Below, one piece after another: positions 22,836 through 52,825 of a stretch of 64,000 bases of DNA (its first letter is position 1; each line of letters starts with the position of its first letter). This DNA is from Dacryopinax spathularia. Its lineage: Eukaryota; Basidiomycota; Dacrymycetes; Dacrymycetales; Dacrymycetaceae. The stretch spans positions 1,116,001 to 1,180,000 of the forward strand of contig JBBPFI010000005.1 in NCBI GenBank assembly GCA_037974965.1, read 5' to 3'. The notes under the pieces are model-generated. The model worked only from the letters and a program-made list of their open reading frames with translations. It ran no database searches and was not told the DNA's origin. Made by a program: the position numbers and the translations under genes.

Positions 22836-25800
22836 TTATACCAATGGGTCTCCGTTTGGGAAATACTGTTGGATAGCGCTCTTGAGATCTCGGAGGAGCA
22901 GGGGCTTGGGTAGAAAGTGGTCCGCTCCTGCCTCCTGGCATTCCGTCCGAGATTCCGAGGAAACATTCGCGGTCAACGCTATGATAGGTAGGCGGGATGA
23001 GGACGACATTTGCTTCTCGAAAGCTCGTATTCGCCGCGTACATTCGAAGCCGTTCATTACTGGCATCCTACGGAAGGGTCAGATTTAGCATCGTCGTGGT
23101 CCAACCCTATCATTCAAGAAAGCTTACTGGCAATCCATGAGGGCCAGGCCGTATTTGTCCCTATTTGTGGTAACCATGTCCAGTGCGATCTGCCCATTTT
23201 CGGCGACGTCGCATCGATAGGACATTTTCTGGAGAAGCCGCACGCCCAACTTCTGGTTGACCTGAAACAGACCATTAGACGTCGATAAGACACTAGATCT
23301 GTCCACGTACGAGGTTATCCTCGACCAGGAGGATGTGCTTAGCGCCAGGCGACGTAGGTGGAGTGCTCGTGGCCGCTGGAGGGGTGGCGGGCTGAACTTG
23401 AATCGGCTGGGTCTCCGGAGAACTTGGGGAACTGGCAACAAAGTGTACCCTTTTTTCACTAGAAGGCAATGGTGGTCTCCGCGTTACCGGTTCCAACGGG
23501 TTCAGAACTCGGGTGCTGTCTTCCCAGTATACGGACACATGGGCTTGAGTGTCGGGATCATCCGCAAGCAAAGGTGGTGACATGAGGGGTGTAGAGGGCT
23601 TCACTATCCCTTCTCTCAGGCTGCGGACGAGATCTTAAAGTACGACCGGCCGGCGGAGAAGGCCCACTCTGCCTGAGTGCTTCAGTAGTCGGATCACGGC
23701 TGGTCCCGTCTCGTTCCCGACGTCATCGTAGAGCACGTACGCCGCCATCTTGTCTTCCAAGCCAGCAGTTTGGAGTGACAGCTGAAGGACGTAATCAAGT
23801 AGCCATGGTGCCCATGCAAGGCATTCCATATCAATCAACAGTCGCTCAGGCTCACTCAGACTGGGTTGTTTTGCTCGAAGCTGATGATCGAGCTCGATTT
23901 GTTGAATCGAAAATCCGCGTTTCTCAAGATGGTCTTTGTACACGTTGTAGGTCTTCGCACTCCGAACGGCGACGGCTACGTTGACCGGTTTCTCGATGGG
24001 GGCTGAAGGATTACGCTGTGAAGGAGTTGGCATCTCCTCCGCACCGGCGAAAGCCGGGATACGCATGGTGAAATCGCTGCCCACGCCAATCTTCGACCAG
24101 ACTTCGATCGACCCGCCCATTCGCTCGCAGAGCTGCTTGCTAATTGCCAGCCCCAGGCCGGCACCGGTGTGCGAGCGGGTGAGAGAGGTGTCGGCCTGCC
24201 GGAAGGGCTCGAAGATGGTGGACCGGGATTCTGCGGGGATGCCAATACCGCTATCTCGAACCGAGATGGCCAAATGAGGCTGAGAGGCGTGTTTGGGTTG
24301 TTCGACCGTGACTCGGACGAGCACGTATCCCTCTTCTGTGAACTTGAGCGCGTTACTGTCGTCCCCCGTCAGGACACCATATACTGATGACTGACATACA
24401 GTGGCATACCTGATGAGGTTCATGGACGACCCGTGTCGTGTACACTTCATCGAGCCGAACATGCACCGGTACAGCCTCATCCACCACCAAGAGCAACTCG
24501 ACATGCTTTTCCGGCGGCACCCGCACAGCTGCGTCTTCCTCTGCGGCCTCGCCGCTGCTGTCCATCGCACGGTTCCTCGCCAACCTGCGCAGCTGCTGCT
24601 CTGTCATCCGGTGCGGAACAGCGCACGATTGAAGCACGCGATGGACCAGTGGACGGATCTCCACTTCCGTGGGACGGGCGAGGGCTTCACGCGAATCTTG
24701 CTCTAGCCTCGAGAAATCAAGGACGTTGCTGTATCGAACATCAGATCATGCTGCAGAATGATACAGTGCGGCGAAAGCGTACTTCGTAATCAGCTGGATA
24801 GAAACGCATCCCATCCTGATAGCCTCCAAGAACGTCGCCTGCTCCTCCGTCAGCTTAGTCTGCAGCAACAACTCGGTATATCCTGAAATCGCATGCAGCG
24901 GCGTCTATTCACTCCCTTTAGTGCACTCTACTGGTAGGAAGGACGGGAAAGCACGCACCCGGATCTCATGGCTCGCGACGCTAATAAACTCACTCTTGAT
25001 CTGGTTTGCCCGCTCGAACGCCTCTTTCTCCGCGATCGCCTTCCACAGCCTTCTCTTGGTGAATATCGTCTCTGCGAGCCGATTCCGACTCTGCGTGATG
25101 AGATGTGCGAGCAATGCGTAGCTCAGGACATAGGTCGCGATCGCCATTACGACGATGAGGAGTGCGAGGTCGGACTTGACGACGGTGCTGCTGTGTGGGG
25201 GAGGGATGGGCGTCCATATTGTGCCTGACCAAATGCCGAAAAAATGCATGCCGCTTATGCCTGTCGGGCCTAGGATCGAGATGGCCGCTTGTCGCCACGC
25301 GTTCGGCTCGGATGGGAGATAGAGGACCACGAAGATGTTCGTTATGATGCCGAATGCCAGGCTGAGCAGGACGTAGGGCCAGTACCACGCAAAGACGCCA
25401 TCCATCGTCATCCCGAGCATAGCGGAGAAATGCATCACCCAGACCATCACTCCCAGTACGCATCCTTTGAGCAATACAGCGGGTGTAAGGGACAGGACCG
25501 CGTCCCAAAACAGAGAACCCAGGAATGTAGACCCACCAGGTAGGCGCTGGACGCGTTTTGCCCGCGCGCGGGAAGCGGCGGAGGGCTGATGGTCGGGATG
25601 CGTCCAGAGGTCGGCTGTACTGCCGGAGTTTGACCAGTCTGCACCACTTGGGGGAGGACCACCAGAGACGCTGGAGGCTGACGAATACGAGCCGGAACGG
25701 TGAGAGGAGCGTTCTTTGTCGAAGACGCCGAATGCTCCTGCTGGTACGGGGCCCGCATCAGAAAGAGGAAGGTCAGGAGGGAGGGAAGATGTAGGGGAGG

Positions 25801-26839
25801 CGTAGCGCTTCGCCAAGGCTGCTTTCGGGTCGGTTCGAGCCAGGCCAGCGAGGTCCAACCCGAGCACCGGGTGATCGGACAAAGGAAGAGGAGGCGGCTC
25901 CTCCACGCCGGGCGTGCCAGGATCGCGTAGCACGGCACTGGCCGGTCTGCGTCGGAGCGCACCGGGAATGGCAAAATCGCCCAGACTTCCATCGACCGAT
26001 CCGCGACCAGAACCTTCCTCCATCTCCCCCAAGCCCATCCCACCAGGAGTATCACCCTCTTCCTTCCCCCCCTTTTCACCCTCTCCCTCCTGCGGTAGAG
26101 GCATAAGCGGTAAATCCAACTCCTCTTCAGAGCCATTCAGCCCTCTCATCCCACCCAGCCCTCCGGGCCCCGGATGCAACGAGAACTTTCCCCCTCTTGA
26201 GGAAGACGTGGTCCGTCGTTTTCGGAATTCAGCGAGGAGGAGGTCGGAGGCGAGGACGAGGAAGGTGGTTGTGATCATTCCTGCGCCGGCGAGGAGGGCT
26301 GAGGGGGTGTGGTATGTTACCGGGATACCGATGTTCATTGCTGTCCGTCCCAGCTGGGATTAGCTTGATCCCACAGAGAGCCAAAGCAATACAAGCTGAG
26401 AGGAAAGAACAGAGAGGGGGCGGAAGACCAGGAGGCTGCCGGCAGAAGGGGACGTCGACGACGACGAAGAAGAAGGAGAAGAGAGTGCGATGAGAGGTAG
26501 CGCACCAAGCATCTTGACCCAATGCATACCCCAAACCGCCGTTCCCGCCAACGAGAAACTCGCCACTCCCAACCATGCCAGCTTGTCCCTAAGCCGATGG
26601 GTAGTACTGACTTGAAGCACTAATTGGGTGGCCGTGTACGCGCCGAGGATGGCACTGAGGTAGGAGGCGAAGAGCATGGGGGTGTTCCAGGAGCGGGTTA
26701 AGGGATAGAGTGGGGTGGAAGACGGGTAGAGGGAGAGGATGTGGGGCGGGGGCGGTGGGGACGGGACGGAGGGGACATGTGGCAAGGCGGGGAGGGCGGG
26801 GAAGGTGGTGTTGAGCAAGTTGCGGATGGGGATGTACAT
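22836..26839 (-). CDS. MHYT-domain hybrid histidine kinase, copy 1
   Basis: Minus strand, about seven exons, roughly 1,150-1,200 aa. Starts MYIPIRNLLNTTF (26839). The N-terminal multi-pass membrane sensor has three MHYT-like motifs in degenerate form: GMHWVKML, VMHFSAML, GMHFFGIW, each in a hydrophobic helix; a long Ser/Gly/Pro-rich loop separates the first from the rest. Then HisKA with SHEIRTPLHAISGY (formed across an intron at about 24900), HATPase_c with NALKFTEEG, DSGIGIP, GAGLGLAI, a ~110 residue receiver-like segment without the usual acidic pocket, and a true C-terminal receiver: ILLVEDN, ALMDCQMPVMNG (phospho-Asp), IIALTA, KP. MHYT domains are proposed metal/gas sensors (family knowledge). 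A paralogue lies head-to-head at 31616. Confidence 0.9.
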
Positions 26840-27157
26840 CTTGTTTTGCTGCCCACGGGAGGCTGTTTGCAGTCCAGGAATTAGCAAAACGAGCAGTCGA
26901 GCGCTTCTGAGCGAGCTTCAGCGGCACGCGCTCAAACCACGGGGTAGAGGAGCAGAGCGAGTGGTCGACAGCAGACACGAGCAATCAGACGACGAGCTCA
27001 ACCGAGCTGCCGACGGCCCAAAACTCCATGCCTTTGCTGACAAACGCATCGAAGGCGACTCTTCTGCTAGCAGCGGGGAGGTAAGAGCGCGTTCGGATGC
27101 GATGACCAGGTCGAGGTGGATGACCGCAAAGCATGATCTCAAGGGTGTGGAAAAGTT
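26840..27157. promoter_or_regulatory. Upstream of kinase copy 1, bordering the transposon
   Basis: Only ~320 bp separate the kinase start from the first possible transposase start. Either the kinase promoter is very short, or the transposon has displaced upstream sequence. I could not find a terminal inverted repeat that fixes the transposon edge here. Confidence 0.4.
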
Positions 27158-28572
27158 GTGCGATCATCCACGAAAGGAGGTTGCATTCAGGGCCCTGGTG
27201 ACGCGTTCGGCTGCCGCATCTCTCTGCTTGACCACCATCTTGTCTGTATGGCTCGCTTCTCTACATTGTCTGCAGATCAACAACACTCTGTCCTCAGGCA
27301 TCATCGGCTTCTGCTCTCTGCTGCTCAACTGGTCCTGTCAGCTGGTGCTGGTGCTGCGGCTACCTACTATCGGAACACCTATCTGAACAAGCAGAAGCAG
27401 CATACCTCGGTCCTTTCTGGTCGACAATGGGTTGAAGAGCTTTTGCAGGGCAATCCAGCACGGATCTACAATGCTCTGGGCATGCACAAGCATGTTTTCC
27501 GACGTCTTTGTCTTATGCTAAGAGAGCGGGCCGGTCTTGGCCGGACAAAGTATGTTGAGCTTGTCGAGCAAGTCGCTATCTTCCTCCGGATCGTCCGGGC
27601 TGGTGATTCCAACCGGTCTGTTTGTGAGCGGTTCCAACGGAGTGGTGATACTATATCACGGTATGTACACCTCTTCTTGAGTATGCCCTCTGGCTGATCT
27701 TGCTGCAGGATGTTCTATCGTGTCCTGAATGCTCTGCTTTCACCTGCAGTCTATAATCTCTACGTCCGGCTTCCACCATCCTCGACTCCACTCGAAGTCC
27801 GACTCCAGCCCAAGTGGTATCCTTTCTTCAAGGACTGTATCGGTGCAATCGATGGGTCGCATATCGATGTCACTCCACCAGTTGCTGAGCAGGCTCGCTA
27901 TCGAAACCGAAAGGGTGGCGTGACGCAGAATGTCCTTGCGGCCTGCACCTTCGACATGCGGTTCTGCTATGTGATGAGCGGTTGGGAGGGTAGCGCAGCA
28001 GATGGTAGACTGTGGTCGGATGCACGTATGCATGACCTCCGCGTCCCACAAGGCAAGTACTATCTGGCAGATGCGGGCTTCACAACCTGTGATGCCCTTT
28101 TAATGCCATACCGTGGGGTGCGCTATCATCTCAGAGAATGGACTGTGGTAAAGCAAAGGTATGTCATCTGTACACTGCTGAGCTATACTCACCAGTATAC
28201 AGACCGCAAAATCCAGAAGAGCTTTTCAACCTCCGTCATTCGCAAGCACGAAATGTGATTGAGCGGATCTTTGGTGTCTTCAAGAAGCGGTTCGCAATTC
28301 TGCGCCATGGCTGCGAGTATCCTATCGAAACTCAAGCCCGTGTGGTGAATGCCTGTGCTGTCATTCACAATTTCATCCGTACCTATGACCCGGACGATTT
28401 GGCCGAAGAGCTTGAGGGAGAGGCAGAGGAGCCGCAGGCATACAGTGCAAGCCTTGCTGAGTCGGAGCACGCTTCGGCTGCAGAGAAGGCACGAGCATCA
28501 GCACAACGGGATGCAATTGCAGCAGAGATGTGGGCAAGCTATCAGGCAGAGTTAGACCGACGTGGAAGGTAG
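27158..28572 (+). CDS. Harbinger transposase (HARBI1-like DDE nuclease)
   Basis: Three exons, 27158-27660, 27709-28158, 28203-28572, 440 aa (410 if the start is the Met at 27248, MARFSTLS). Introns are 48 and 44 nt (GTATGT...GCAG; GTATGT...ACAG) and keep frame. N-terminal ~150 residues are the helix-turn-helix region found in Harbinger nucleases (VEQVAIFLRIVRAG, VCERFQRSGDTISR). The DDE_Tnp_4 catalytic triad is present: Asp in GAIDGSHI, Asp in YYLADAGF, Glu in NVIERIFGVFK. It cuts and inserts DNA together with the Myb-like partner (family knowledge). The C-terminal 60 residues are acidic then Ala-rich. No damage seen. Confidence 0.9.
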
Positions 28573-28576
28573 ATAG

Positions 28577-29741
28577 CTATGGATGCAACTGATAATCTAC
28601 ACTATCCAGACCCATCCCAAACAAACTCTGTGACAGACCAGTGGAGTGTGGAGGTCCTGGAGTCAGCTGGGACCGCAACCACTCAGTCCTGAGCCCCGAG
28701 TCAGTACTCCCCATATACACATCCACCGCTGAGATATCCTGCCGAAAGAGCGTCATTCCGGCAATGACCTCTTGCCTTGTCAATCCCTCTTCAGCTTGCA
28801 ACCGTTGGACCGCCTCTCTCCGACGCTCTGGTGAACTCTGAATACGGGAGGAACCTTCAGCAGATGCAGTGTTGGCAAGTGCATCGACAACCATCTGCAT
28901 CGTGTTCTCCATTGCAGTGCTGATTGCAAAAAGCCCTGCTGTACCGGACTTGCGGAGGCGGGCCGGTTTGTCATCAGGAGCTGAAAGAGGTGACGAGGCT
29001 CGCTTCCGCTTGGGTGCTGGAGTGGCCACTGGGGCATCATCCTGTCCAATGTGTTTTAACAACTGAGAGGCATAGGAAGAAACCGGTGCATACCTCAGAC
29101 TCGCTCCGGTGATCGGGAATTGCACCAAAGTCCGGCCAACTTGGGCTCCGTCTGCCATGCTCCCCATCATGTCCGGTCACCTCGTTCTCTGCTCCGCTCT
29201 CTCCCTCTTGAGTACTGGGTCGGAAGACATGTTCACCAGTGGCTATCGTATCCTTGGTGAGAAGGGCCATGGAGTCGTAGAGTGGAAATGGTTTTTTCCT
29301 CCATGGTTTGATTTGTGGATGCGACTTGATGGCCTTCTCCCAGGTATCTGGCTCAGCAGTAACCCGTTGGTTGGCTTCATCCCAGCCAAAGCCAGAGAAC
29401 TTGAGAGGGTCACGCAGGTCTCGTACGATCCGATACTGGCCTTTGAGCTATAGTATATCAGTATGATGCTCCGAGGCATGAGCAAATTTGCGCACCCTCT
29501 GCCAGCGAGCCTTGCAATGCTCTACTGTCTTGGGCACAGTCGGCTTCAGAACAGACAGCACCTCCACAACTCGCAGCCAGACAACTGTCTTCCATCCACT
29601 CTGCGCCTGGTTCCCCCTTTCCATCTCCAGCACCAATTGCCGGACCATCTCAGCCTCGTCCTCAGCAGTCCATTCCGCCTTATCCTCCTTCACCCCCTCT
29701 TCCTCCGGTGCTTTCTGTGCTTTCTTTCGCTTGGCAGCCAT
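28577..29741 (-). CDS. Harbinger Myb/SANT-like accessory protein
   Basis: Three exons on the minus strand. Exon 1 (from 29741) encodes MAAKRKKAQKAPEEEG, then WTAEDEAEMVRQL and KTVEHCKARWQRV, the tryptophan-bounded helices of a Myb/SANT-like DNA-binding domain (Myb_DNA-bind_3 type). Exon 2 continues LKGQYRIVRDLRD and SGFGWDE, which complete this family's domain. Exon 3 holds a basic stretch (PAPKRKRASSPL), a likely nuclear signal, and a helical C-terminus (LQAEEGLTRQEVIAGMTLF). In Harbinger elements this protein brings the nuclease into the nucleus and binds the transposon ends (family knowledge). Intact as far as I can read. Confidence 0.85.
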
Positions 29742-31615
29742 TGCTCTTCGGTGCTGGGAGAGGATAGACTTTTGAGGGAGGGAAGAGATAGCAGTACAGG
29801 GTATGTGAAGTCAGAGGAGATCGTCGAGAAAGTGGTTGACCGCTGTTTCTCAAAAGGGACCATGATCTGACGCGGTCATGGCCTTGATCCCGTGCGGTCA
29901 AGGGTCGCCGAACGGTCCGTCAACCTCTGGAGATTGCACGACCTCGACCTCGACCTCGATCTGGCAGATCACGCATGATCTCGTGCATCCGAACGGCCTC
30001 TAACCCTACACCAGGGGCCGTCTCCCACTCGAACTCCTTGTGGACGCGCTGGGAGAGGCGTCCACCCGAATTCCGCCAAAAGGGCGCCCTGAGCAGACGC
30101 GGATCCGCGTATGTGGAGAGCTCAAGGACAGAAAGGGTCTTGTTCTTGGGTCTGCCTAGATGGGGAGGGGTCTGGCTGGCTAGTATTATCACCGGTCATA
30201 AAATGCTGATAATAGTATATATTAGCAATCTATTCTATTACATGCTACTATCCTATGCTGCCTACCAATACCACGGATGATAAACTCCTATCATATTTGT
30301 GAGCAAAGAAATGCCACATGAGTGTTGCACTTACATGGTGGTGGGAGGAGAGCAAGATGAAAATCACTAAGTCCACAAAGCGCGCTACCCAACGCGTCGC
30401 ACAGATCACGTGTACCTTGATTTTGCGGGTCTGATCTGGGTCTTCAACCCTTTTCGCCAAATCTCGAAGACCCTAACCCTCCGAGCGGAAATCGGCTGGA
30501 CCGTCCATGCCGGAACCGTAGACAGCCCATCCGGGCGGAGTCCTGTCGGAACTTGGCTTGCGGTGTAGGGCTAGATGCTGACCCGAGAGTCGGATGACAG
30601 CTGGGACAAGCGCCGAGATTAGGACTGTATGAGCCAGCGGGGCCCAAACCCGGGTCTGAAAGGGCCGGCGAATATGGGCGTGGGCGTGGGAGTCCGATAT
30701 CGCAGTTTTGTGGGGTCGGGTCTTCGGCGCAGATATGAAGAGTCCTGAGACCGTCAGGGTTATATATGCCGTACAGTCAAGACATTCGCGAAGAACTAGC
30801 AGACAGCAGGGCGGGATTTGCGAAGTTGACGTCGATTGTCACTCACTCTTTGGTTGAAGGAGAGAAAGACAAGGAGCACAGCCACGCTCCATGGGTTCTG
30901 AGCATTATGTAAGCGTTCTAAATCGGGCTACAATCTCGTCCACATCAAGATCTCTGGTGCAACGCCGCGCTTCTCCTCGAAGCAGACCTCGAGTTGCTCC
31001 TTTCAGTCTCGCACTCACGCTTCTATGGTCTTCCGCCGGCGGCCTTGCAGTCACCTCACCTTCAGAACGTGACAAACCCCCGATGCGTTATCCCTTCAGC
31101 TGCCCGATCTCTGATCCGCAATAAGGGTCCATCGTATTCATTGACCGGGCGGAACGGCGAGACACCAGCCAGGCGCGGGAATCCCTCCCCGCGGCTGACT
31201 GCCCCTTTGCACATGCAGGCCGCCCTGCGATAGGCTCAGTGGCCCTGACAGTTGGAGGAAGGCATCCGCTCAGCGAGGTGAGGGGTGTTGGTCAGCGGTG
31301 GTTGGTGCATATGTAGGGTTATTGGGCCGAAGAGTGCCGACCGACTGCCTTATTCCTGTCCATCAAAGCGGAGGATGCCGCGCTGCTGAGTCTTTGATCG
31401 CTGGATGCCGTGCGGGGACGTCTTTCTTTCCTGACTTTGATCGTCCTTGGCTTCTCTCTACTTGGTCGCTGTCATCTGCGAGTCTGCTGCTCGTCGTCTT
31501 CCCTCCCGTCGGCCTGGCGTACTAGCCGTCGCTGCCCTCTGGCTTCTCAGGCGATAACCCCTCCCGCACACCGACGTCCTGTCCTCTTACCCCTCCCTGG
31601 CGGCGACCCTCCAAG
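29742..31615. other. Intergenic region between transposon and kinase copy 2
   Basis: About 1.9 kb. A minus-strand frame at 29920-30192 has balanced composition and could be a stray coding fragment (see findings). An AT-rich patch at about 30183-30300 contrasts with its surroundings. The last 250 bases are C/T-rich and should hold the kinase copy 2 promoter. Confidence 0.4.
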
Positions 31616-34600
31616 ATGTACATCGACATCTGCACCCCCTCCCTCTCCTCCCCGTCGGTCGTGGCACCAGAGCCTCACTACCCCCTCCAACGGACATACA
31701 ACATCCCCATGCTCCTCGCCGCCTACTTCATCGGTATCCTCGGCTCGTACACCTCCACCCAGCTCCTCTCCCAAGTCCCCGCCACGCGCCGCCTTTCCCG
31801 CAAACTCGGCTGGACAGCCCTGTCTGCGTTCTCGATCGGAGGCACAGCAGGCGTGGGGATGCACTGGGTCAAGGTCCTCGCGGCTGTTTATCCGTATTCG
31901 GCGAGTTATACCCTCGGGTGGCCGGCCGTAACGGGGGTAGTGATGCTTGTTGTGACGTTTGGAGTGCTGAGCTGGGATGTGTGGGCGGAGGAATGGGAGA
32001 AGAGGAGAGGGAGGGGAGGAGTGAAGTTTTCGCTGGATATGAGGAAGAACGGGAGTGATGAGGGGTTGCCGTTGTTGCCTGTTACACCGGTGGAGGATGA
32101 GGGGGAGAAGGCGGGTGTGCTTGGGCGTGAGCGGGCGGGCGAAGGGGAGGGGCTGAGGAGACGGTCGACGCCTGGTCCGCCTGAGAACCGGGAAGCGAGG
32201 GAGGGAGAGCGAGAGAAGGAGAGAGCGGCGCATGAGCCTGTGCTGGTCAACGGGCTATACACGCCCGGGCTCACCCCTCCAGCGCAGAGTTGTCCAGCTC
32301 CTCCGCCTGTTCCCCAACCGAACGCTGTCCCACGTAACACCTCCATTCCAGCAGCACCAGCTCCCATCTCCCCCTCCCCCTTACCTCACGCACCACACGC
32401 ACATCATCACCCCCAGCCCCACCCCCACCCAGCCCCATCAACCCTCTCCCTCCCTCCCTCCACATCCACGTCCACATCCACATCGCGCCCCACCCCCTCC
32501 CCCACCGCCCGACCCGACACCCCCGCCTCCCAAACCGGTTCTACCTCCTCCAACCAAGCCTCCCTCTTCCTCCCCTCCACAACCCCCTCCCCCGCCCTCC
32601 TCGCCTCCTCCCAACGCTCAGCCCGCATCTCCCGCCTTCCCCTCGGCAACACGTACATCGGCTCAGCAGCCTACCACTCCCTTTTCTCACTCACCCTGCC
32701 CATTCTGGCCAAGGGCGCCGTGCTAGCAGTAGCAGCCTGGCTGATGCACATCACCGCCCTCACATCCCTCCATTTCCCCGAACTCGACTCCCTCGGCACA
32801 TCCTACGGCTACGTGTGGCGGTGGGACCTGCTCCTGGCGAGTATAATAGCGGAATGGGTGACGACGACGGGGATTGTACTGTGGGCCCCGGATGCGGAGA
32901 GGGATGGAGGGGCCGGGGCGGCGGGGGCGGGGAGACAGGCGTGGTTTGCGGTTTTTGCACCGACGGCGGCGAGTTTCGTGCATTTTTTATGTGTGTTTAG
33001 TGGTGCGTCCTCTCCTCCTCCTCTCGGTATTCTCTCAGCTCCTGTTCTTCGTCCCCGACTCTCGCTCCTGAGTCTTTCTTCCTCCCTTCCGTTTTCACTC
33101 CTTCCTCTTCCCTCGTACCTTCCCATCCCCGGCACCCGACTGGCAAGATGTTTACTGACGCCCACCCCAGGCGAACTCTACACCACCAGCCCACCCCCTC
33201 CTCTCCCCCCGCGCCCAAGCACCGACATCCCCTCCCTCATCCTCACCCTCGCAGTCTCATCCTACGTTCTATCCTACGCGACCCTCGCGCACCAGATCAC
33301 CCAGTCCCGAAACAGGCTCGCAGAGACGATATTCACGAAACGGAGGCTGTGGAAGGTCATCGCGGAGAAGGAGGCGATGGCGCGGGCGAATGAGCAGAAG
33401 AGCGAGTTTATCGCTGTGGCGAGTCATGAGATTCGGGTGCGTGCTCCCGGTCCCTCCCCTGTGTACATTCTCCTTTGTCCCCTCCCTTACCTGTCTGAGC
33501 TTCGGATCGGGACGATGGTGCTGATGTCTGGTGCGGGAATAGACACCGTTACATGCGATTCTGGGGTTTACGGATCTATTGCTCCAGACGAGCTTGACGG
33601 AGGAGCAGTCGACATGCCTGGAGGCAATCAGGATGGGGTGTAATTCCATTCAGCTCATTACAAAGTACGTCCCCACACATCCCCCTACAACCGTCTGAGC
33701 TGACATACCCTCACCGGCAGCAACGTCCTCGACTTCTCCAAGCTCGAACACAACACCCGCGAGTCCGTCGCCCACGCCACACCCGTGAACGTCCGCACGC
33801 TCGCCCTCCGGATTCTGCGCTCCACGTCCGCCCCACAACGGATGACAGAGCACCAACTCCACCGGCTAGTGAACTACAACAGCAATCCCTCCGACGGGGG
33901 GAGCGACACGGACAGTCCGAGCCTTCACCTGCCGGACGAGAAACACGTCGAGCTCCTGCTGGAAGTACACGAGGCCGTCCCCGAAATAGTCAAGCTCGAC
34001 GAAGCCTATATTACGCGGGTGGTGATGAACCTCATCAGCAACGCGCTCAAGTTCACCGAGGATGGGTTCGTCCTTGTGAGGATAACGGTCGAGTACCCTA
34101 AGCTCGTCCTTCCCGGTATACCCGCCAAGCCCGTCCTGGCTATCAGCGTAAGAGACAGCGGGATCGGCATTCCGCCAGAAGCGAAACAAGCGATCTTCGA
34201 GCCTTTCCGGCAGGTGGACGGCTCTCTGACGCGCACGCACACGGGTGCCGGACTAGGGCTGGCGATCAGCAAGCAATTGTGCGAGCGGATGGGAGGGACG
34301 ATCGACGTGCATTCCAAACCGGGTGTGGGGAGCGAGTTCACCGTCCGCGTACCGGCGTTTGAGGGGATGCAGAATATCCCGGATCCGCTGCATATGCCCA
34401 GGCCGCAGTTCAGCTTCTTGACTGTTGCAGTCGCCGTCCGATCACTCAAGACGTTCCACCTGTACAAGGAGCTGCTCGAGCGGCGAGGCTTCCTCCTTCG
34501 TCCTATCGACCTCTCCCACCCGGAAAAAGAGTGTCAGGTGTCGCTAGCGCATGTTGACCGCCTGCTCGTCGATGTGGAAAGCTTAGCCGTCGCGCCCTGG

Positions 34601-35758
34601 TTGTTGGACTGGATCATCCGTCTTCCTCAAGTACCCGAAGCGAGCTGCCCCATCTCCGTCTACGTGTTGATCGAAGACCTGAGTAACGATGTTGGCCAGC
34701 AGCTCATCCGGATGCTCAAGGGATCTGGGCAAGTCGCGCTCGTTCATCGGCCCGTGTTGGTGCATACGCTGCTGGCTAGTTTACTAGAAGGCGTCACGCT
34801 CAGTCCGCCGACGGCCGTCAATTCGCCCTTCCGGAATATAGCCACCCCGCTTGCCGCTCCGAAGACCAATGGAAAGCCCGACAGCGGATACGAGTATTTC
34901 CCGCCTGTATTCGAAGATGGTCCGCTCCCTTCGGTTCGGACACCGCGAAGAGAAAGCGCAACTCTGAACTGGGAGGACACTGTTGGGCGGATACTGAACC
35001 CATTTGAACCGGTTGTTCAGCGTGCTCGTGCTCCCTCGAATGACAAGCGTGTTAGGTTCGAAGGTGCACCGAAGGGTGGTAGGAGGAGTCCGATTCATTT
35101 GCAACCGCCACCGCCAGATGCGCGAGCTGCGCATAGTCATTGGAGTCCCGTCGGCGGATCGACGAAGCCGTCGGAGTCGAATGGGTCGTCGAAGACAACA
35201 GATCCGCCAGCCCAAAATCAGGCTGTCCCGGACATACAAGCTATTCAGCCCCCATTGCCACCACCGCCCAAGAGACATATACTGCTCGTCGAAGATAACA
35301 TTGTGTGTCATTCTCAAGTTACCTCAATCCTTTCTTGCCTGACCTCTCATCAGGTCAACCAAAAGCTAGGCATTCGCCTATTGCAGAAGCTCTCACATCG
35401 GTGTGACGTTGCAGAAAATGGGAAAGTCGCCCTCGACATGCTCAAGGCGAACGAGGAGAAGTATCATCTCGTTCTCATGGATTGCCAGTAAGCACAGCTT
35501 TTCCAGTCGGGAATGTAACCTCATCAACGGATCAGAATGCCTGTCATGAATGGTATCGAGTGTACGCGACAAATACGGTTCCTGGAAGCGACGGGCGCTC
35601 GACGAGTTCGTATACCCATCATAGCTTTGACAGCGAATGTTTCGTCGCAATCCAGAGAAGAATGCCACCAAGCCGGCGCCGACTTCTTCTTACCCAAACC
35701 CCTATTACTCCAAGACCTCAAGAATACACTGGATCAGTTCATCCCGGTAGTAACGTGA
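31616..35758 (+). CDS. MHYT-domain hybrid histidine kinase, copy 2
   Basis: Plus strand, about six exons, roughly 1,200 aa, starting MYIDICTPSLSS. Same architecture as copy 1: membrane sensor with GMHWVKVL, LMHITALT and VHFLCVFSG in place of MHYT; a Pro/Ser-rich loop (residues ~150-340); HisKA with SHEIRTPLHAILGF formed across an intron near 33435-33540; HATPase_c with NALKFTEDG, DSGIGIP, GAGLGLAI; a receiver-like segment with no recognisable phospho-Asp; and a C-terminal receiver with ILLVEDN, LVLMDCQMPVMNG, IIALTA, KP. Introns at about 33001-33170 and 35305-35352 keep frame. Expected to feed an Ypd1-Skn7/Ssk1 phosphorelay (family knowledge). The third MHYT-like motif has lost its Met, so its sensor may differ from copy 1. 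Confidence 0.9.
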
Positions 35759-37653: not shown

Positions 37654-38590
37654 TCAAGCGGAGACTTGCTCAAGACCCTCCATCAAGCTCTTCGCATCCG
37701 TCAACCAGCCCCACTGCTCAGTCTTCCCGTGTACGGTCTTGATCGTATGGTCGGGATTGGTGGTGTTGGCCAGCTCCTTGACCATGATCATGTCGTAACC
37801 CTTGTAATACGCGTCGATCATGCTGCCCCAGACGCAGACATCGGTCATCACTCCGCCCCACATAGTGGTTGTGATCTGGTTGTCCTGCAGCCAGAGCTCG
37901 AGCGGCTGCTGTCCACAGAGAGCGGAGAACCGGTTCTTCCAGATATGAACATCGGTGCCAGCCTTGATCCCCTCTTCGGCAAACTCCTTCAATGGACCCC
38001 ACAGCTCCGCGTTCCAAGTTCCGCGCATAAGCTTGCCGCCCATGTCGATCGGCTTGGCTTGCCCGGGAACGGAGACGGTGCCGATGTTCTCCCCGTAGTT
38101 GACCTTGTCGCGCAAGTAGGACATGTAGACGTATGACGGTGGCACGGTCTTCAGGTCGCCCTCGTGCATGCCCATGTTGCACCACACAACGGGGATACCG
38201 GCTTTCCGGCACGCCTTGACCGTCTCCATCATGATAGGTACAGAGTCCCTGCCAGGCCCGTTGTTGAATAGGTCCTCATGCAGGAAGTAATCTGGGTCTC
38301 CGATCAGCTTATGCGAGTAGAGCTTCAGGATTTGGCGTACTCTGCATGTCAATGATGATGAGTGCCGTCTTCTTGGGTGCGATGGTGATGGGATCCTTGG
38401 TGGTCTTGATCGTGACCTTCTCGGGAGATCCCCGTGAGAGGTCGAAACCGGCATCGGACTTGATCCAGCTGGTCAGGAGTGTATGTCAGCGAATGACAAG
38501 GCAGCGAAGTTCACAGGATACGCACTAGTTGTAAGCATTCCCAAACTTCAACGTCTCGGGAGTTGCGACGATAGTGCTAGCGTCTCCCAT
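37654..38590 (-). CDS. Isochorismatase-fold cysteine hydrolase, copy A
   Basis: Three exons 38590-38526, 38468-38341, 38291-37654, 276 aa. Introns 57 and 49 nt with GTGCGT and GTACGC donors. Catalytic triad of the isochorismatase-like family is visible: Asp in ALIIIDMQ, Lys in HIWKNRFSAL, Cys in GVMTDVCVWGS. Conserved surroundings include NGPGRDSVPIMM, GIPVVWCNMGM and YYKGYDMIMVKE. Relatives hydrolyse isochorismate, ureidoacrylate, nicotinamide or biuret-like amides (family knowledge); the true substrate here is open. Copy B follows upstream on the same strand with the same intron positions and ~75-80% visibly similar sequence, so this is a tandem duplication. Both copies look functional. Confidence 0.88.
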
Positions 38591-39181: not shown

Positions 39182-40127
39182 CTAAGCAGCTGAAGTCGCC
39201 TGCTCGATACCCTCCATCAAGCTAGCAGCGTCGGTCAGCCAACCCCACTGCTCCGTCTTCCCATGAATCGTCTTGATCACATGCTCCGGATGGGTCGTGT
39301 TCGCCAGTTCCTTGACAAGTACGATATCGTAGCCCTTGTAATACGCGTCGATCATGCTTCCCCAAACGCATACATCGGTCGCCACGCCGCCCCAAAGAGT
39401 AGTGGTGATCCCGTTCTCCTCGAGCCATACACCAAGCGGCTGATGTCCGCAAAGCGCGCTGAACCGGTTCTTCCAGATGTGGACGTCGGTGCCGGCCTTA
39501 ATTCCTTCCTCAGCGAACTCCTTCAGGGGGCCCCAGAGCTCCGCGTTCCATGAGCCCTTGATCAACTTCGGGCCCATGTCAATCGGCTCGGCCTCGCCTG
39601 GGACGGACACAGCTCCGATCGACTCGCCGTACGGGACTCCATCGCGCTTGGTCGACATGTAGACATAGGAAGGCGGAAGGGTTTGCTTGTCCGCAGGAGT
39701 CATGCCCATGTTGCACCAAACGACAGGTATCCCAGCCTGCCGACATGCACGCACAGTCTCCATCATGACAGGCACAGAATCACGTCCAGGACCATTGTCC
39801 AGCAGTGCAGGGTGGCAGAAATAGTCTGGGAGGATGGTTAGGGGCCGGGTTCGGGTAGGATGCAGTGAAAAAAACGCACTCTGCATGTCGATGATCACCA
39901 ACGCGGTCTTCTTCGGTGCGATGGCGATGGGGTCTTTGGTGGTCTTGACCGTGATCTTGTCCGAAGAACCGCGAGTCAGGTCCCAGCCATCGTCCGTCTT
40001 CAGCCAACTGCGACACCGGTGTCAGATCGCGCGGCAAGGGTTGGTTAAAGGGTGAAACGCACTAGTTATACGCATTCCCGAACTTCATAGTGCCCGGTTG
40101 AGCGATCACCGTGCTTGCGTCTCCCAT
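39182..40127 (-). CDS. Isochorismatase-fold cysteine hydrolase, copy B
   Basis: Three exons 40127-40063, 40007-39880, 39825-39182, 278 aa. Exons 1 and 2 have exactly the same lengths as copy A (65 and 128 nt). Triad: Asp in ALVIIDMQ, Lys in HIWKNRFSAL, Cys in GVATDVCVWGS. First residues MGDASTVIAQPGTMKFG parallel copy A's MGDASTIVATPETLKFG. Differences cluster in the loop after GPGRDS and at the C-terminus. Predicted soluble and cytosolic, no signal peptide. Having two close copies suggests dosage or divergence in substrate; sequence alone cannot choose. Confidence 0.88.
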
Positions 40128-45940: not shown

Positions 45941-47824
45941 TCAAGCAGGGGGAGCAACGACCTTCGCCCCCTTCACCTCCTTGAGCGTCCTCTCCCTCAC
46001 TCGTCTCCAGACCTCCCAGACCTCCCGCCTCTCCACCTCGAGCCCTTCCCACTCACCCGTATTCTTCGCTTTTCCTCCTAGGCCAAACCAACCCTTCACT
46101 CCCGTAGCCTCTGCAGGTACTGGTGTACCTGCTCCCGGTCCAGAACCAATAAAGCTTTCCTCTCCTCCTACCCAGCCTAGACCCCGCTCGGCACAGTCAT
46201 ACGCCCTAGCCCATTCTCCCTTCCGCTCATGAAGGACAGCAGCAAGTGCCCACGCGTGTGCTGCTGCCCTTCTTGCGTCGCGCAGGAGCCGACGGGCAGG
46301 GTCCCGGAGTACGACGCTCTTTGCGTAATTCGGTGCGAGGGGCAGTCGAGGTGCGGGAGGTGCAGGGAGAGGCGAGGCGGGGAAATCAGGGTGTCGGAGG
46401 GGGATGCCGGATAGGAGGGAGATGGCGTGCTCTGATGCGTGGGCGGAGGCAAGGAGGGAGGAGAGGGCAGGAGTGTGGTTCATCGATGGTGAGAGTGTGT
46501 AAAGGACTTCGGCACGATGGAGAGAGAGCAGGGCGGCCGCATGGGAAAGGGAAAGTGTGTGAAGTGTCTTGGCTGGCGGGTCGCTGCTGCCCGATGTGGC
46601 TGCGTTTGAGTTTGAGTTTGCGTTTGAAGAGGATGGCGATGATGATGTGGGTGGCGGAGTGAGTAACGCCAATCCCGCATTCTGGAGAGCCAGCGCCCGT
46701 GTGAGTACAGCTTCCTCAGAGTATGCGGCAGATAGGGAAACGAGGGCGTTGGCGATTGATCGTTGAGCAAGCGGATTCTTGGGTAGCTCAGTAGGGATGA
46801 AGTCCGGTACTGGCAGCGGCGGCGGTGCAGACGAAGCGGCCTTCTTGCTCCCAAACCAGCCAGACTTCGTCGGTGCCGGTACGAGCTCTTCAGTCGCGGT
46901 TACAGCAGCGCTGACCGGCCGATCCGATGGCAAGGGTACCGTGTCCCCACTTGCTGTCCGTACTGCCCAGATCCACCAAGCAATGCCCTTTCCCACCTCC
47001 CCCAACCGCCTAGACACATCCCCAACTTTCGCCCCTATACGCGCCGCCTCACCAGCCCTATGCTCCTCAGCCAGCTCCTTGGCCAGTTCTCGGTATTTCT
47101 CCCTTGCGTCCAGCACGAATCTCCGCCCTCCAATCCTCTCCAGCACCTCGGCGTATCGTGCTAGCAGGTCTTGCGCCGCATCGCTACCGGGAAACTCGCC
47201 GAGATGCTGAACCCTCTTCTTGCATACCTCGATTGCATTTCTCAGGAACAAGCGGCCGTAAGCGTACTCTCGTGCAGGAACGGCGAAACCGAACATGTCG
47301 ACGTCCGAACTTGGTTCGAAGAGCTCGTCCGGTCCTACACCCCAGTGCTGCGCCATCCACGCACTTCGCACAAGCTGCTGTCCCGTCCAGCCCAATCGCG
47401 TGTCTGTTCCACCGCCTCTTCGACCAGTATCTCGCCGTCCCGTCCACTTCTCTCTTTCGAGTGCGAAATCCCAGTCTTTTCCAGGCTCGAGGTCGTCCGG
47501 CTCCAGGCAGTTGTACTCCACATACATATGGGAGGCGGTATATGCTGTTAAGCCGATGGTCGCTACAAGAGTACCACCAATAAAGGTGAACCGGAGGACT
47601 CGCAGAATTGTCTGTCCCACAATCCGTAATGGGACGGTGAAGTCACCACCGTATGTTGGTGCTTGGGGGATATGGCCAGCAGCTGACGGACCAGGCGGTG
47701 GTGTCGTCGACTGGCATCGGGCGAAGCGAGGACGAACGAATACGTGTCGAGGCGTCGGTGAGGTCGTCGCTCCATGTCGTGCTAGTTGGGGTCGAGACCG
47801 CAGTCGCAGATGTCTGGGCAACAT
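45941..47824 (-). CDS. Mitochondrial inner-membrane TPR-like protein (Mgr3-like, tentative)
   Basis: Single exon. The frame is open from 48025 (694 aa), but the better start is the Met at 47824, giving ~627 aa beginning MLPRHLRLRSRPQLARHG, an Arg-rich mitochondrial presequence. A membrane helix follows (RFTFIGGTLVATIGLTAYTASHM in part), then a large soluble part with paired helices resembling TPR units: ARYAEVLERIG, AREKYRELAKELAEEH, LALQNAGLALL, AWALAAVLHERKG, RAYDCAERGLGW. That order fits Mgr3, a TPR adaptor of the i-AAA protease (family knowledge; assignment tentative). A Ser/Asn-rich linker is present. Convergent with PTC7, stops ~200 bp apart. Confidence 0.7.
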   Translation of the reverse strand: MLPRHLRLRSRPQLARHGATTSPTPRHVFVRPRFARCQSTTPPPGPSAAGHIPQAPTYGGDFTVPLRIVGQTILRVLRFTFIGGTLVATIGLTAYTASHMYVEYNCLEPDDLEPGKDWDFALEREKWTGRRDTGRRGGGTDTRLGWTGQQLVRSAWMAQHWGVGPDELFEPSSDVDMFGFAVPAREYAYGRLFLRNAIEVCKKRVQHLGEFPGSDAAQDLLARYAEVLERIGGRRFVLDAREKYRELAKELAEEHRAGEAARIGAKVGDVSRRLGEVGKGIAWWIWAVRTASGDTVPLPSDRPVSAAVTATEELVPAPTKSGWFGSKKAASSAPPPLPVPDFIPTELPKNPLAQRSIANALVSLSAAYSEEAVLTRALALQNAGLALLTPPPTSSSPSSSNANSNSNAATSGSSDPPAKTLHTLSLSHAAALLSLHRAEVLYTLSPSMNHTPALSSLLASAHASEHAISLLSGIPLRHPDFPASPLPAPPAPRLPLAPNYAKSVVLRDPARRLLRDARRAAAHAWALAAVLHERKGEWARAYDCAERGLGWVGGEESFIGSGPGAGTPVPAEATGVKGWFGLGGKAKNTGEWEGLEVERREVWEVWRRVRERTLKEVKGAKVVAPPA

Positions 47825-48322
47825 TTTGGTGTCGAGAACGTCCGATACGGCGAGCTCGATGGCGACGACGACGGTCAGGCCAATTTGGTCGCTCGCGACG
47901 GACGCAGACCGGAAGTAACCGAAGTTCGCTAACTCCGCATTCGGTGTTAGCGAACTCCAATATCGTGTCCTTGTCTCTTCATTCTTCGGCAACTGGCACG
48001 ACGTTGCCACTGCGGGCTCATGCACAGATTCTGGATGGCAATATCAAGAGTAAAAGCCCTGGACTGCGAAATAGTTTCGGGAAGTAATGGTCTGGCTCTG
48101 AAGGTCTGGCCTTGACAAGAAGATATCAGGTCAGGGCAGTCTCAGGTTTGGGCTGGAGCTCAGACAAGGCCTTACTTCTGGCTTGTCTCATTTGGATGAA
48201 GCAACGGCATTCGAAATAGAGCGCAACCGTGTTTGAGCGCCTGACTAGGTATGGAAACGATTACGAAACATTGATGTACGACATATGTTCGCGGGCGGTG
48301 ACTATGGAAGATGCACAGTTGA
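47825..48322. promoter_or_regulatory. Spacer upstream of the Mgr3-like gene
   Basis: About 500 bp; the first 200 are open in the Mgr3-like frame but probably 5' UTR. Carries the promoter and the 3' end of the next gene. No motif recognised. Confidence 0.35.
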
Positions 48323-50053: not shown

Positions 50054-52825
50054 TCATGCAGTTGGAGGAAGATCCCATCTGCTTCGCTTCCTTTTGGATA
50101 TTCGGTCATCGTGTGCCGCAGGGGTACCTTCCAGGCTCGAACGCTTGGTCAGGAAAGAGACTACTCTGGTTGATCCTTGAGGCGGCTGTTCGATCATGTT
50201 CCCGGTGGCGTACCTGTGGGGTACAATAGGTATGTCTGGACTGGGCATGACTTCACGGTTTTGGTTGGGTGAGTGGAGATGATTGAATTGATATGCTTGT
50301 TTCTTCTCCCTCAATAGCAAGTGCTTGTAAAGGCTTTCGAGCGCATCCATAGTGCGGCAGAGCTCGTGGACCGCATTAGTAGCCGCCGTCTGATCAGCCG
50401 AGACCTCAGCCAGTTGACGCTTCGTGTCTCCGGTAGACCTGGAGAGCAGTTCAAAGGTTTTCTCATGCTCGGTCTGTAATTCGTCTTGTACTGCCCGACA
50501 GGCCGAAAGCAGCTCGTGCGGAGCGACTGTTGGCCGAGCCTCGATCGTATGTGTGCGGGCGTCGAGCTATTTATTGGTTAGCTATGAATGAGTTCTGGTT
50601 GGAGGGATAATGGGAGGAAAGTAAGACTCACTGCATTGGCGTTGTGTTGGAGGTTGTCCACCATTGAACTTGCTTTCAAGATGGCTATATTTTGGTTCTG
50701 CACAGACTCTGACAGGCGGGCGGATTCGCTCGAAAGTGTCGACACCGAATCTTGAACAGAGCGCATGTTTGACTGCTGTGCACTCAACTCCTTTTCCATG
50801 GATTGCGTCTGCCTTTCGAGGATATGAAGACGAGAAAGGGTACGCTCAAGAGACTGGCTGCACGCATCCACGTCCTTGCCCGAACTGTCTTGGCGTCCTT
50901 GTAGCTGTTCGATTCGCTGACGAAGTAACTGGACGGTGTTGTTCAGCTCGTTGTGTCCCTGTTCAGTGACAAAGCTGTCGCTCGCCAATGTGAGGACCAT
51001 GCCGCGGAACGTTTCTACTGTGTGTTCTAGCCGGATGAGATCATTTCGTGAGGCTACAAGCCAGGCGTTCAAGTTGCCGATAGCATCTGACATTTCGATC
51101 GGTGTAGGGGTCCGCCCGTTAGTATCTTCGCATGTCGCTGCTTCCGCAGAGGTTTTGACCGCTTCGATGGTTTCATCAAGCAAGTCAGTCAGACGAGCCA
51201 TTTCGGTGTCCTGCGCAGATGACTTCGCTTCGATCTCTGTGACTCTCACTTGCTCAGCCGATAGAGCTCCCTGCAAGGTCGATACTTGATTGCGGAGTCC
51301 TTCTGTGATCGCCTCTAACGACGTGAAGTGCACGATCGCGTTGTCCATCTCGGCTACTCTGGAGGAGAGCTGGGGAACGTGCTGGCTAAAGGAGAGTGCA
51401 CTATCCACGTTTGTTGCAATGGTTTGAAGTTGCTGCTCAAGCGCGACCTTCTCCGTGCGGACGAGCTCCGCATGACGCTCAATGTCACCCGTGATGACCG
51501 ACTGACGATCGTGTACGGCCTTAATCAGGCAGTCGGTCGCCTGTATGCTACCCTCTACCGCGGATACTCGCTTTAACAGATCGTTCTGTCCCTGTTGTTG
51601 GACGCGTTGCGTTCCGACGACATCGAGCGAGAGCTTCTGGATAGATTCTTCCAACTGACGCGTCTTGTCCTCGACAAGGTGCTCCAACGTGGTTGACTTC
51701 TCACCAGCTGTGTTGACCTTCTCGTTCATCTCGGTCAACCTGCGCGTGATAACGTCCATATCGTCGTGAAGAGCCTGGAGCTTGACACCGTCGTCATCAT
51801 ACGATTGCATATCCTCTTTGACGTGCAAGATCGCTCGCCAGATTTCATCAACCTCCTTGCGCAGATCGTCGGTATTCTTCTGGGCAGATGCGGAGATTCC
51901 TTCTCGTAGGGAGTCTGTGGCTTCCTCAAGGTTCATGCGCAATTGTTCTCCGGTTGCTTTGCGATATCCATCGAGCTCAGTTGACAAGCGACGCAGACCT
52001 GAAGGGATCGGCTCGAAATCGCGATCGAGAAGGGCAAGTTTGCTTTCCAAATTGCTCGTCCTCTCTTTATAAACAGCAAACTCAGACTCCCGCTTGTCGC
52101 GTCTGGTGTTCAGCGCGGTATCGTGATTGTTGATGGACACGTGACTCACTAGTTCCAGCACATCGATGCGTGCTTGTAGCGCGTCTTTTTCTCCCTTATC
52201 AGCAACGGCTTGCTCTTGCATGCGTCGCAATTGTTCCGCTAAAGAAGCCAGTTCTTGATGTTTCATCGCATTCGCGTCTTCGAGCTCTTGAATACGTGCC
52301 AAAAGGGGTTGGACATACGTGGTCAACCGTCCCTCAAGCATACGTAGAAGCGTCTCATCCGGCAAATCGTCGCGAGAGCTGGCACTCTGTCTGAGCCGAG
52401 GACGTCAGTAAGCTCGTACAAAATAGGTTAGACACATGGACGCACCCGGCTGTGTAGGGATGGCGCTTGCTCCGCAGAGAATGAGCCGACGCCCCTGCCT
52501 TTGTCACCCAACCGGGCCCTATTCCTCCATCCGGTAACGTCGCCCTCTCCGAAAACGCAAGGTCCCGCCTGCCAGGAAGAGTGCTGCCTTCTCTCATAGA
52601 GTCGTACTGCGCGGTGCCTCGTAGAGCAAGTGGTTGGAAGAAGTAGCGTTTTTCATACCCGTCACGATAAGTTTGGAAGATCGCGTTTTCAGGCGCATCG
52701 AGTATGGGGTAAAGCGGCGCGCCCGTAGTCCCAAGCGGTGGTTCGCACCGCATGAGACATGAACCAGGAGAGATTGGGAGCCAGTTGCGGACATTACGAT
52801 GAGACTCTCGCCGGTTGCTGGACAT
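50054..52825 (-). CDS. Coiled-coil protein B
   Basis: Three exons, 52825-52446, 52390-50632, 50566-50054, 883 aa, frame kept through both introns. The first ~130 residues (MSSNRRESHRNVRN...) are not coiled, with an aromatic segment (IFQTYRDGYEKRYFFQPL). From residue ~140 to ~760 it is nearly continuous coiled coil, starting DETLLRMLEGRL and LLARIQELEDANAMKHQEL. The C-terminus has NQNREVMPSP and a basic end (ISKRKRSRWDLPP). Tail and architecture parallel coiled-coil A. Likely a structural protein of spindle pole, septum or nuclear scaffold type (guess). Divergent from the membrane protein gene. Confidence 0.8.

Follow-up and report, generated by a model that had tools for sequence, protein, structure and literature searches.

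Histidine kinases with an MHYT sensor are present as a single copy in each Taphrina species and in a few others, in Pezizomycotina (PMC4007546), and copper-dependent carbon monoxide (CO) sensing has been demonstrated for the MHYT regulator CoxC (PMC11347149). Receivers lacking any of five conserved residues are defined as pseudo-receivers (PMC12632262). Their role in plant cytokinin receptors is listed as open (PMC10779265), and the only fungal pseudo-receiver characterization known to the authors of PMC12632262 is that of Rim15p. Fungal MHYT kinases are already published (PMC4007546), as is the order HisKA-CA-pseudo-receiver-receiver (REC), in plant cytokinin receptors and ShkA (PMC10779265). 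No basidiomycete MHYT kinase, and no MHYT kinase with a pseudo-receiver, appeared among the matches listed from open-licence literature, a weak negative. Here we describe two adjacent genes, A and B, for MHYT-type hybrid histidine kinases in a 64,000-nucleotide stretch of Dacryopinax spathularia DNA (the window; C5:1116001-1180000, within a 29.2 Mb genome of 24 contigs), together with a third copy, C. The locus probably represents an old head-to-head duplication in which A has recently died or become a null allele and the sensor of B has drifted, with the open and unlinked C alongside.

A first-pass annotation of the window had proposed two kinase genes arranged head to head with a common architecture, and this proved correct. 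The ends of its span, 22836 and 35758, are the exact stop codons of A and B, the two genes lie on opposite strands and are transcribed away from each other, and Pfam domains are found in both (Table 1). The domain order of each runs from an MHYT-like membrane sensor through HisKA, HATPase, a receiver-like segment and a linker to a true receiver; in the plan drawn for B and C, a low-complexity linker separates the putative pseudo-receiver from the true receiver. Splice models of A, B and C were made by hand with GT-AG introns from genomic sequence alone (introns of 49-165 nucleotides in A). Three intron positions are common to all three genes, two to A and C and one to A and B, with one private to each of B and C. 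HisKA, HATPase_c and Response_reg score above the Pfam cut-offs in B and, as three separate pieces, also in A, and all three domains are matched in C. B and C each have an open frame with the HisKA histidine, the CA boxes and a C-terminal receiver containing the acidic residues, Asp and Lys, as in fungal hybrid histidine kinases, whereas A as assembled falls short of this through a frameshift and an in-frame TAA.

The proposal that A is a whole kinase consequently failed on the assembled sequence. The spliced length of A is 1 modulo 3, and a +1 frameshift interrupts the N-box stretch where exon 4 ends. When A is spliced at the introns it has in common with B and C, the codon directly past the exon 4/5 junction is TAA, and the protein ends at 719 amino acids (aa), after HisKA and before the ATP-binding boxes, with two introns downstream of the stop. 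A second TAA, in the old frame, is found in exon 5 near the end of the pseudo-receiver. The rest of the exon 5 frame is open (1 stop, where 500 shuffled versions contain 11.8 on average and never fewer than 3), and A shows no relative excess of private changes beyond the lesion (A 22 versus B 40 after it, A 29 versus B 64 before it; Fisher p = 0.60, low-complexity insert and linker excluded). From these two observations we infer that A was under selection until recently, and A is probably either a pseudogene of recent origin or, in this strain, a null allele. Two points weigh against this. GT-AG choices bypassing each lesion exist on paper, 116 for the frameshift and 12 for the TAA, although each loses part of exon 4 or 5 and none reproduces the way B and C are spliced. 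Both lesions, moreover, rest on a single assembly.

The latter point bears on the alternative that A is intact in the organism, with one or both lesions being assembly errors, in which case the locus would hold two working kinases with different sensors. We regard this as unlikely. It would account for A being, in 8 of 9 segments, the copy with the smallest number of private changes (the exception, the low-complexity insert of the sensor, shows the reverse trend with 29 in A and 9 in B), for A having the shortest branch of the three in the kinase core and for the preservation of the CA and receiver motifs past the lesion. Two lesions in an otherwise pristine gene fit errors, or very recent death. 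However, the lesions differ in kind (an indel and a stop codon) and both fall in A, with none in B or C. Indel noise also looks low, with one gap opening per about 2.9 kb in each of three alignments of the transposon described below with its near copies, a small sample. The broken A is a warning that the open frames of head-to-head duplicates should be checked before functions are assigned to the pair.

The sensors of the two genes had been described as divergent, with the motif sets MHW/MHF/MHF and MHW/MHI/VHF, and both statements are confirmed. A has seven hydrophobic segments, and its motifs MHWV (26527), MHFS (25435) and MHFF (25249) fall at or close to the ends of transmembrane (TM) segments 2, 4 and 6. 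B carries MHWV (31859), MHIT (32744) and VHFL (32978). Pfam MHYT (PF03707, cut-off 21 bits) matches C at 96.9 bits and A at 63 bits; B is without a match, either for the whole protein at E <= 1 or for two sensor pieces at E <= 10. A genome-wide search returned three MHYT stretches, all within genes A and C. Three MHYT-like motifs in both kinases, as originally suggested, can be upheld for A; those of B are recognizable only by visual inspection and from its homology to A and C, and this homology is the sole basis on which its sensor is taken as MHYT-derived. In B, all three motif histidines are retained, whereas the third Met and an aromatic residue are gone. Hydrophobic segments passing one simple threshold number 7 in A, 6 in B and 5 in C, and a structure model of the B sensor consists of helices only, with a mean predicted local distance difference test (pLDDT) score of 47.9. 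A low-complexity insert of roughly 200-260 aa (about 250 aa in A) lies between TM3 and TM4. Basic residues in the 15 aa following segments 1-7 of A number 3, 1, 4, 0, 1, 0 and 2, and because of this distribution the insert should be cytoplasmic, by analogy with CoxC.

Private changes of B and A stand at 48:20 in the sensor, 20:4 in the pseudo-receiver and 36:27 in the core, counted without the poorly alignable insert and without the linker (A 9, B 10). Relative to the core, the B-versus-A rate differs with p = 0.037 for sensor and pseudo-receiver combined and p = 0.14 for the sensor by itself. The combined value is one of three uncorrected tests, and faster change of B than of A was rejected.

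A and B are in complementary states, A with a recognizable sensor and a broken kinase, B with an open kinase and a drifted sensor. This state could suggest a split receptor in which the 719-aa product of A, holding the whole MHYT sensor, putatively for gas or copper, and the dimerizing HisKA helices but no ATP site, would act as a kinase-dead sensor subunit pairing with B, with the pseudo-receiver gating transfer. Such an arrangement seems very improbable, despite complementary losses in the two genes (of the pair, a Pfam MHYT match remains in A alone and an open kinase frame in B alone) and an intact HisKA in A (66.8 bits in Pfam; 76.5% identity to that of B over 102 columns). A stop codon upstream of introns may trigger nonsense-mediated decay of the message, and the stop of A precedes two of them. 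Moreover, the distribution of changes does not shift at the lesion, and no motif histidine has been lost from B. If true, the arrangement would represent a eukaryotic two-component receptor derived from the complementary decay of a head-to-head duplicate. We favor the loss of A next to a B with a drifted sensor.

Gene C is a third paralog with the same domain plan and is unlinked to A and B. Open reading frames (ORFs) of the window of at least 70 codons match the 47.4 kb around C only within the kinases, and a segmental duplication of the whole region was rejected on these grounds. Synonymous divergence (dS, NG86) between A and B exceeds 1 (1.08-3.2) in the five of nine segments where it is defined, being undefined in four; by this measure the A/B duplication is therefore old. 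When fragments of four further kinases from this genome were used to root the three copies, A and B joined against C at 53% only, and the rooting was unusable. A bacterial origin of the kinase was also rejected: the best 80 of at least 518 confirmed loci match mainly the HisKA stretch, and none of the 80 has an MHYT sensor when sought by an A+C profile and by three clustered motifs. Among viral contigs, 91 pattern matches included 0 relatives. AbETR2 of Agaricus bisporus (PMC9603746) was considered as a possible relative. Searched against NCBIfam, the first 927 aa of C matched, among the 25 of 77 rows listed, just histidine kinases and a single response regulator, all scoring well short of the cut-offs. 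A, B and C account for three of the eight HisKA matches in the genome, which contains a single HPt match.

Approximately 1.4 kb upstream of C and on the same strand is a Cu/Zn superoxide dismutase exon (C2, L004 8081-8440). The presence of this enzyme beside a putative copper sensor is suggestive, as a single case. On C9 (379541-391317), seven exons matching STE3-type pheromone receptors fall at two sites separated by about 10 kb, a likely mating-type locus, and hydrophobin gives three matches in the genome. These STE3 and hydrophobin matches suggest a basidiomycete-like fungus.

The start codons of A and B are separated by 4,776 bp, 2.9 kb of which is a transposon, leaving about 1.86 kb without it. 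The transposon has the hallmarks of PIF/Harbinger elements, namely a TWA target duplication, inverted ends, a DDE_Tnp_4 transposase and a Myb/SANT-like protein. Its ends are imperfect short inverted repeats, and longer arms score barely higher than shuffles (61 versus 57). Three other near-full copies at 94-97% identity and three partial relatives at 67% are present in the genome. Matching TWA duplications are found for three of the four near copies, including this one, the fourth having an altered right end. We infer that the element is a young insertion. About 35 bases of its right flank (30005-30040) recur at 97% on C10 and C2. Because the 2.9 kb element sits in the 4.8 kb gap, A and B do not form a divergent pair with a compact common upstream region. 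The suggestion of a working pair that is co-regulated or heterodimerizes thus finds no support, with A interrupted twice, a transposon in the gap and a third, unlinked copy without flanking synteny.

The segment between HATPase and the last receiver had been annotated as receiver-like and without an evident phospho-Asp, with structure prediction named as a check. AlphaFold2, given B plus A as the sole second row, predicts five strand-helix units in receiver order (model residues 169-292) at modest confidence, with ten-residue pLDDT means of 50-83 over model residues 171-290. When the segment is aligned locally with a profile built from 108 receivers (that of B itself plus 107 of the 111 found in bacterial loci), the match spans 103 columns; the RLLVD Asp then coincides with the phospho-Asp, and Arg-Pro with Lys-Pro. 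In 200 column shuffles, 4 reach the local score and 0 reach 100 columns. The Asp at the phospho-site position is kept in all three copies, each of which has Val-Arg in place of the acidic pair and Arg in place of the Lys. Because the Asp is retained while the acidic pair and Lys are replaced, the segment is, on residue pattern and predicted fold, best called a pseudo-receiver and not an aspartate-less receiver (ALR). The receiver-like character originally assigned remains likely; the supposed loss of the phospho-Asp does not, the acidic pair and Lys being missing instead. Some Asp-retaining pseudo-receivers may act as less efficient receivers (PMC12632262).

Several results weigh against a receiver-derived segment. 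The mean pLDDT of the whole model is 50.6, with 35.7-44.5 for the other four models, and the residue at the Thr position depends on the method (the model puts Ile/Tyr/Cys there, the profile alignment Ser/Gly/Gly). The hhalign match to the receiver profile is weak by itself (probability 2.8%, E 0.016, one comparison). The best 50 of 1,739 Foldseek matches listed for the CA-pseudo-receiver model are histidine kinases and a hybrid regulator; some also contain a receiver, but alignment ranges are absent and the matches hence have no bearing on the receiver part. Other results would also suit a folded spacer unrelated to receivers, namely the lack of any Pfam match at E <= 10, a profile search of solved structures whose best hit is a deaminase at chance level (E 1.7), an hhalign comparison with two receivers yielding only a 26-column match (probability 0.7%) and an end-to-end profile score within the shuffle range (8.9, above the mean of 4.0 and below the best of 13.6 in 60 shuffles). 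We nevertheless consider a spacer quite improbable given the receiver order of the predicted strands and helices, the 103-column alignment with its Asp-on-Asp and Arg-Pro-on-Lys-Pro pairing, and a position identical to that of the pseudo-receivers in ShkA and plant cytokinin receptors (PMC10779265).

By analogy with described MHYT proteins, copper and a diatomic gas may bind to the putative MHYT bundle close to the outer face, and the last membrane helix would pass the resulting change on to HisKA. Phosphate would then move from His548, which we take to be the phospho-accepting histidine of B, to Asp1162 and on to an HPt protein, for which the genome has a single match, with the pseudo-receiver possibly holding or releasing the kinase, as in ShkA. 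At the A/B locus only B would still be capable of this route, with a drifted sensor, and C would be the copy with both a recognizable sensor and an open kinase. Should B and C operate in this way, they would constitute a fungal membrane receptor linking a copper/gas-type MHYT sensor to a phosphorelay via a pseudo-receiver and a useful test case for the role of the latter.

Elsewhere in the window, two adjacent isochorismatase-family ORFs lie downstream of B (37657-38472 and 39185-40021, minus strand), and two long open frames, 45944-48043 (700 codons) and 50581-52404 (608 codons), both on the minus strand, have no Pfam match at E <= 0.01.

Table 1. Features of the A/B locus (window coordinates) and of the unlinked copy C.
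Feature	Coordinates	Strand	Basis or remark
Gene A, MHYT hybrid histidine kinase, interrupted	26839-22836	-	Hand-made splice model; pieces match B and C
Gene A exons (7)	26839-26506, 26340-24959, 24904-24783, 24728-24410, 24355-23311, 23261-23128, 23067-22836	-	Splice model
A sensor	24959-26839	-	Seven hydrophobic segments, MHYT-like motifs
A H box, His	24970-24968	-	Sequence
A +1 frameshift, N-box stretch	24410-24433	-	Splice model
A second in-frame TAA	23637-23635	-	Sequence
PIF/Harbinger element	27085-30000	unassigned	TAA target duplication 27082-27084 and 30001-30003
DDE_Tnp_4 transposase, in two frames	27698-28569	+	Pfam
Myb/SANT-like ORF	29040-29447	-	21 bits, below Pfam cut-off of 23.6
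Gene B, open MHYT-type hybrid histidine kinase, 1,237 aa	31616-35758	+	Splice model, Pfam
Gene B exons (6)	31616-33002, 33171-33436, 33543-33664, 33721-35302, 35354-35487, 35536-35758	+	Splice model
B sensor, diverged; 3' end includes HisKA start	31616-33436	+	Motifs, homology to A and C
B HisKA, residues 538-602; His548 in SHEIRTP	His 33425-33427	+	Pfam, sequence
B HATPase_c (CA), residues 685-804	33998-34357	+	Pfam
B putative pseudo-receiver, residues 825-950; Asp876 (34571-34573) ending predicted beta3; Arg935 at receiver Lys position	34418-34795	+	Model, alignment
B true receiver, residues 1112-1237, one internal intron; EDN, Asp1162 (35480-35482), Lys1218	35279-35755	+	Pfam, sequence
Gene C, open MHYT hybrid kinase, 1,212 aa, 7 exons	Contig C2, L004 6646-2682	-	Splice model

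Compared with described systems, the kinases of this genome resemble the Taphrina and Pezizomycotina kinase in being fungal histidine kinases with an MHYT sensor, but differ from its single copy per species; the available text of that study mentions no pseudo-receiver, head-to-head duplicate or basidiomycete (PMC4007546). The MHYT-LytTR regulator CoxC has the seven-TM MHYT arrangement seen in A, its motifs lying where TM2, TM4 and TM6 end, whereas its output is DNA binding without a phosphorelay (PMC11347149); the proteins here differ from it in carrying the TM3-TM4 insert. The Caulobacter kinase ShkA has the order DHp-CA-pseudoREC-REC, and a long linker, disordered in part, precedes its REC. 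In contrast to the membrane kinases here it is soluble, and its pseudo-receiver binds c-di-GMP (PMC12632262, PMC10779265); the comparison made here covers domain order only. Plant cytokinin receptors similarly combine a membrane sensor, HisKA, CA, a pseudo-receiver and REC with a subsequent HPt step, and possess a CHASE sensor where the kinases described here have MHYT (PMC10779265).

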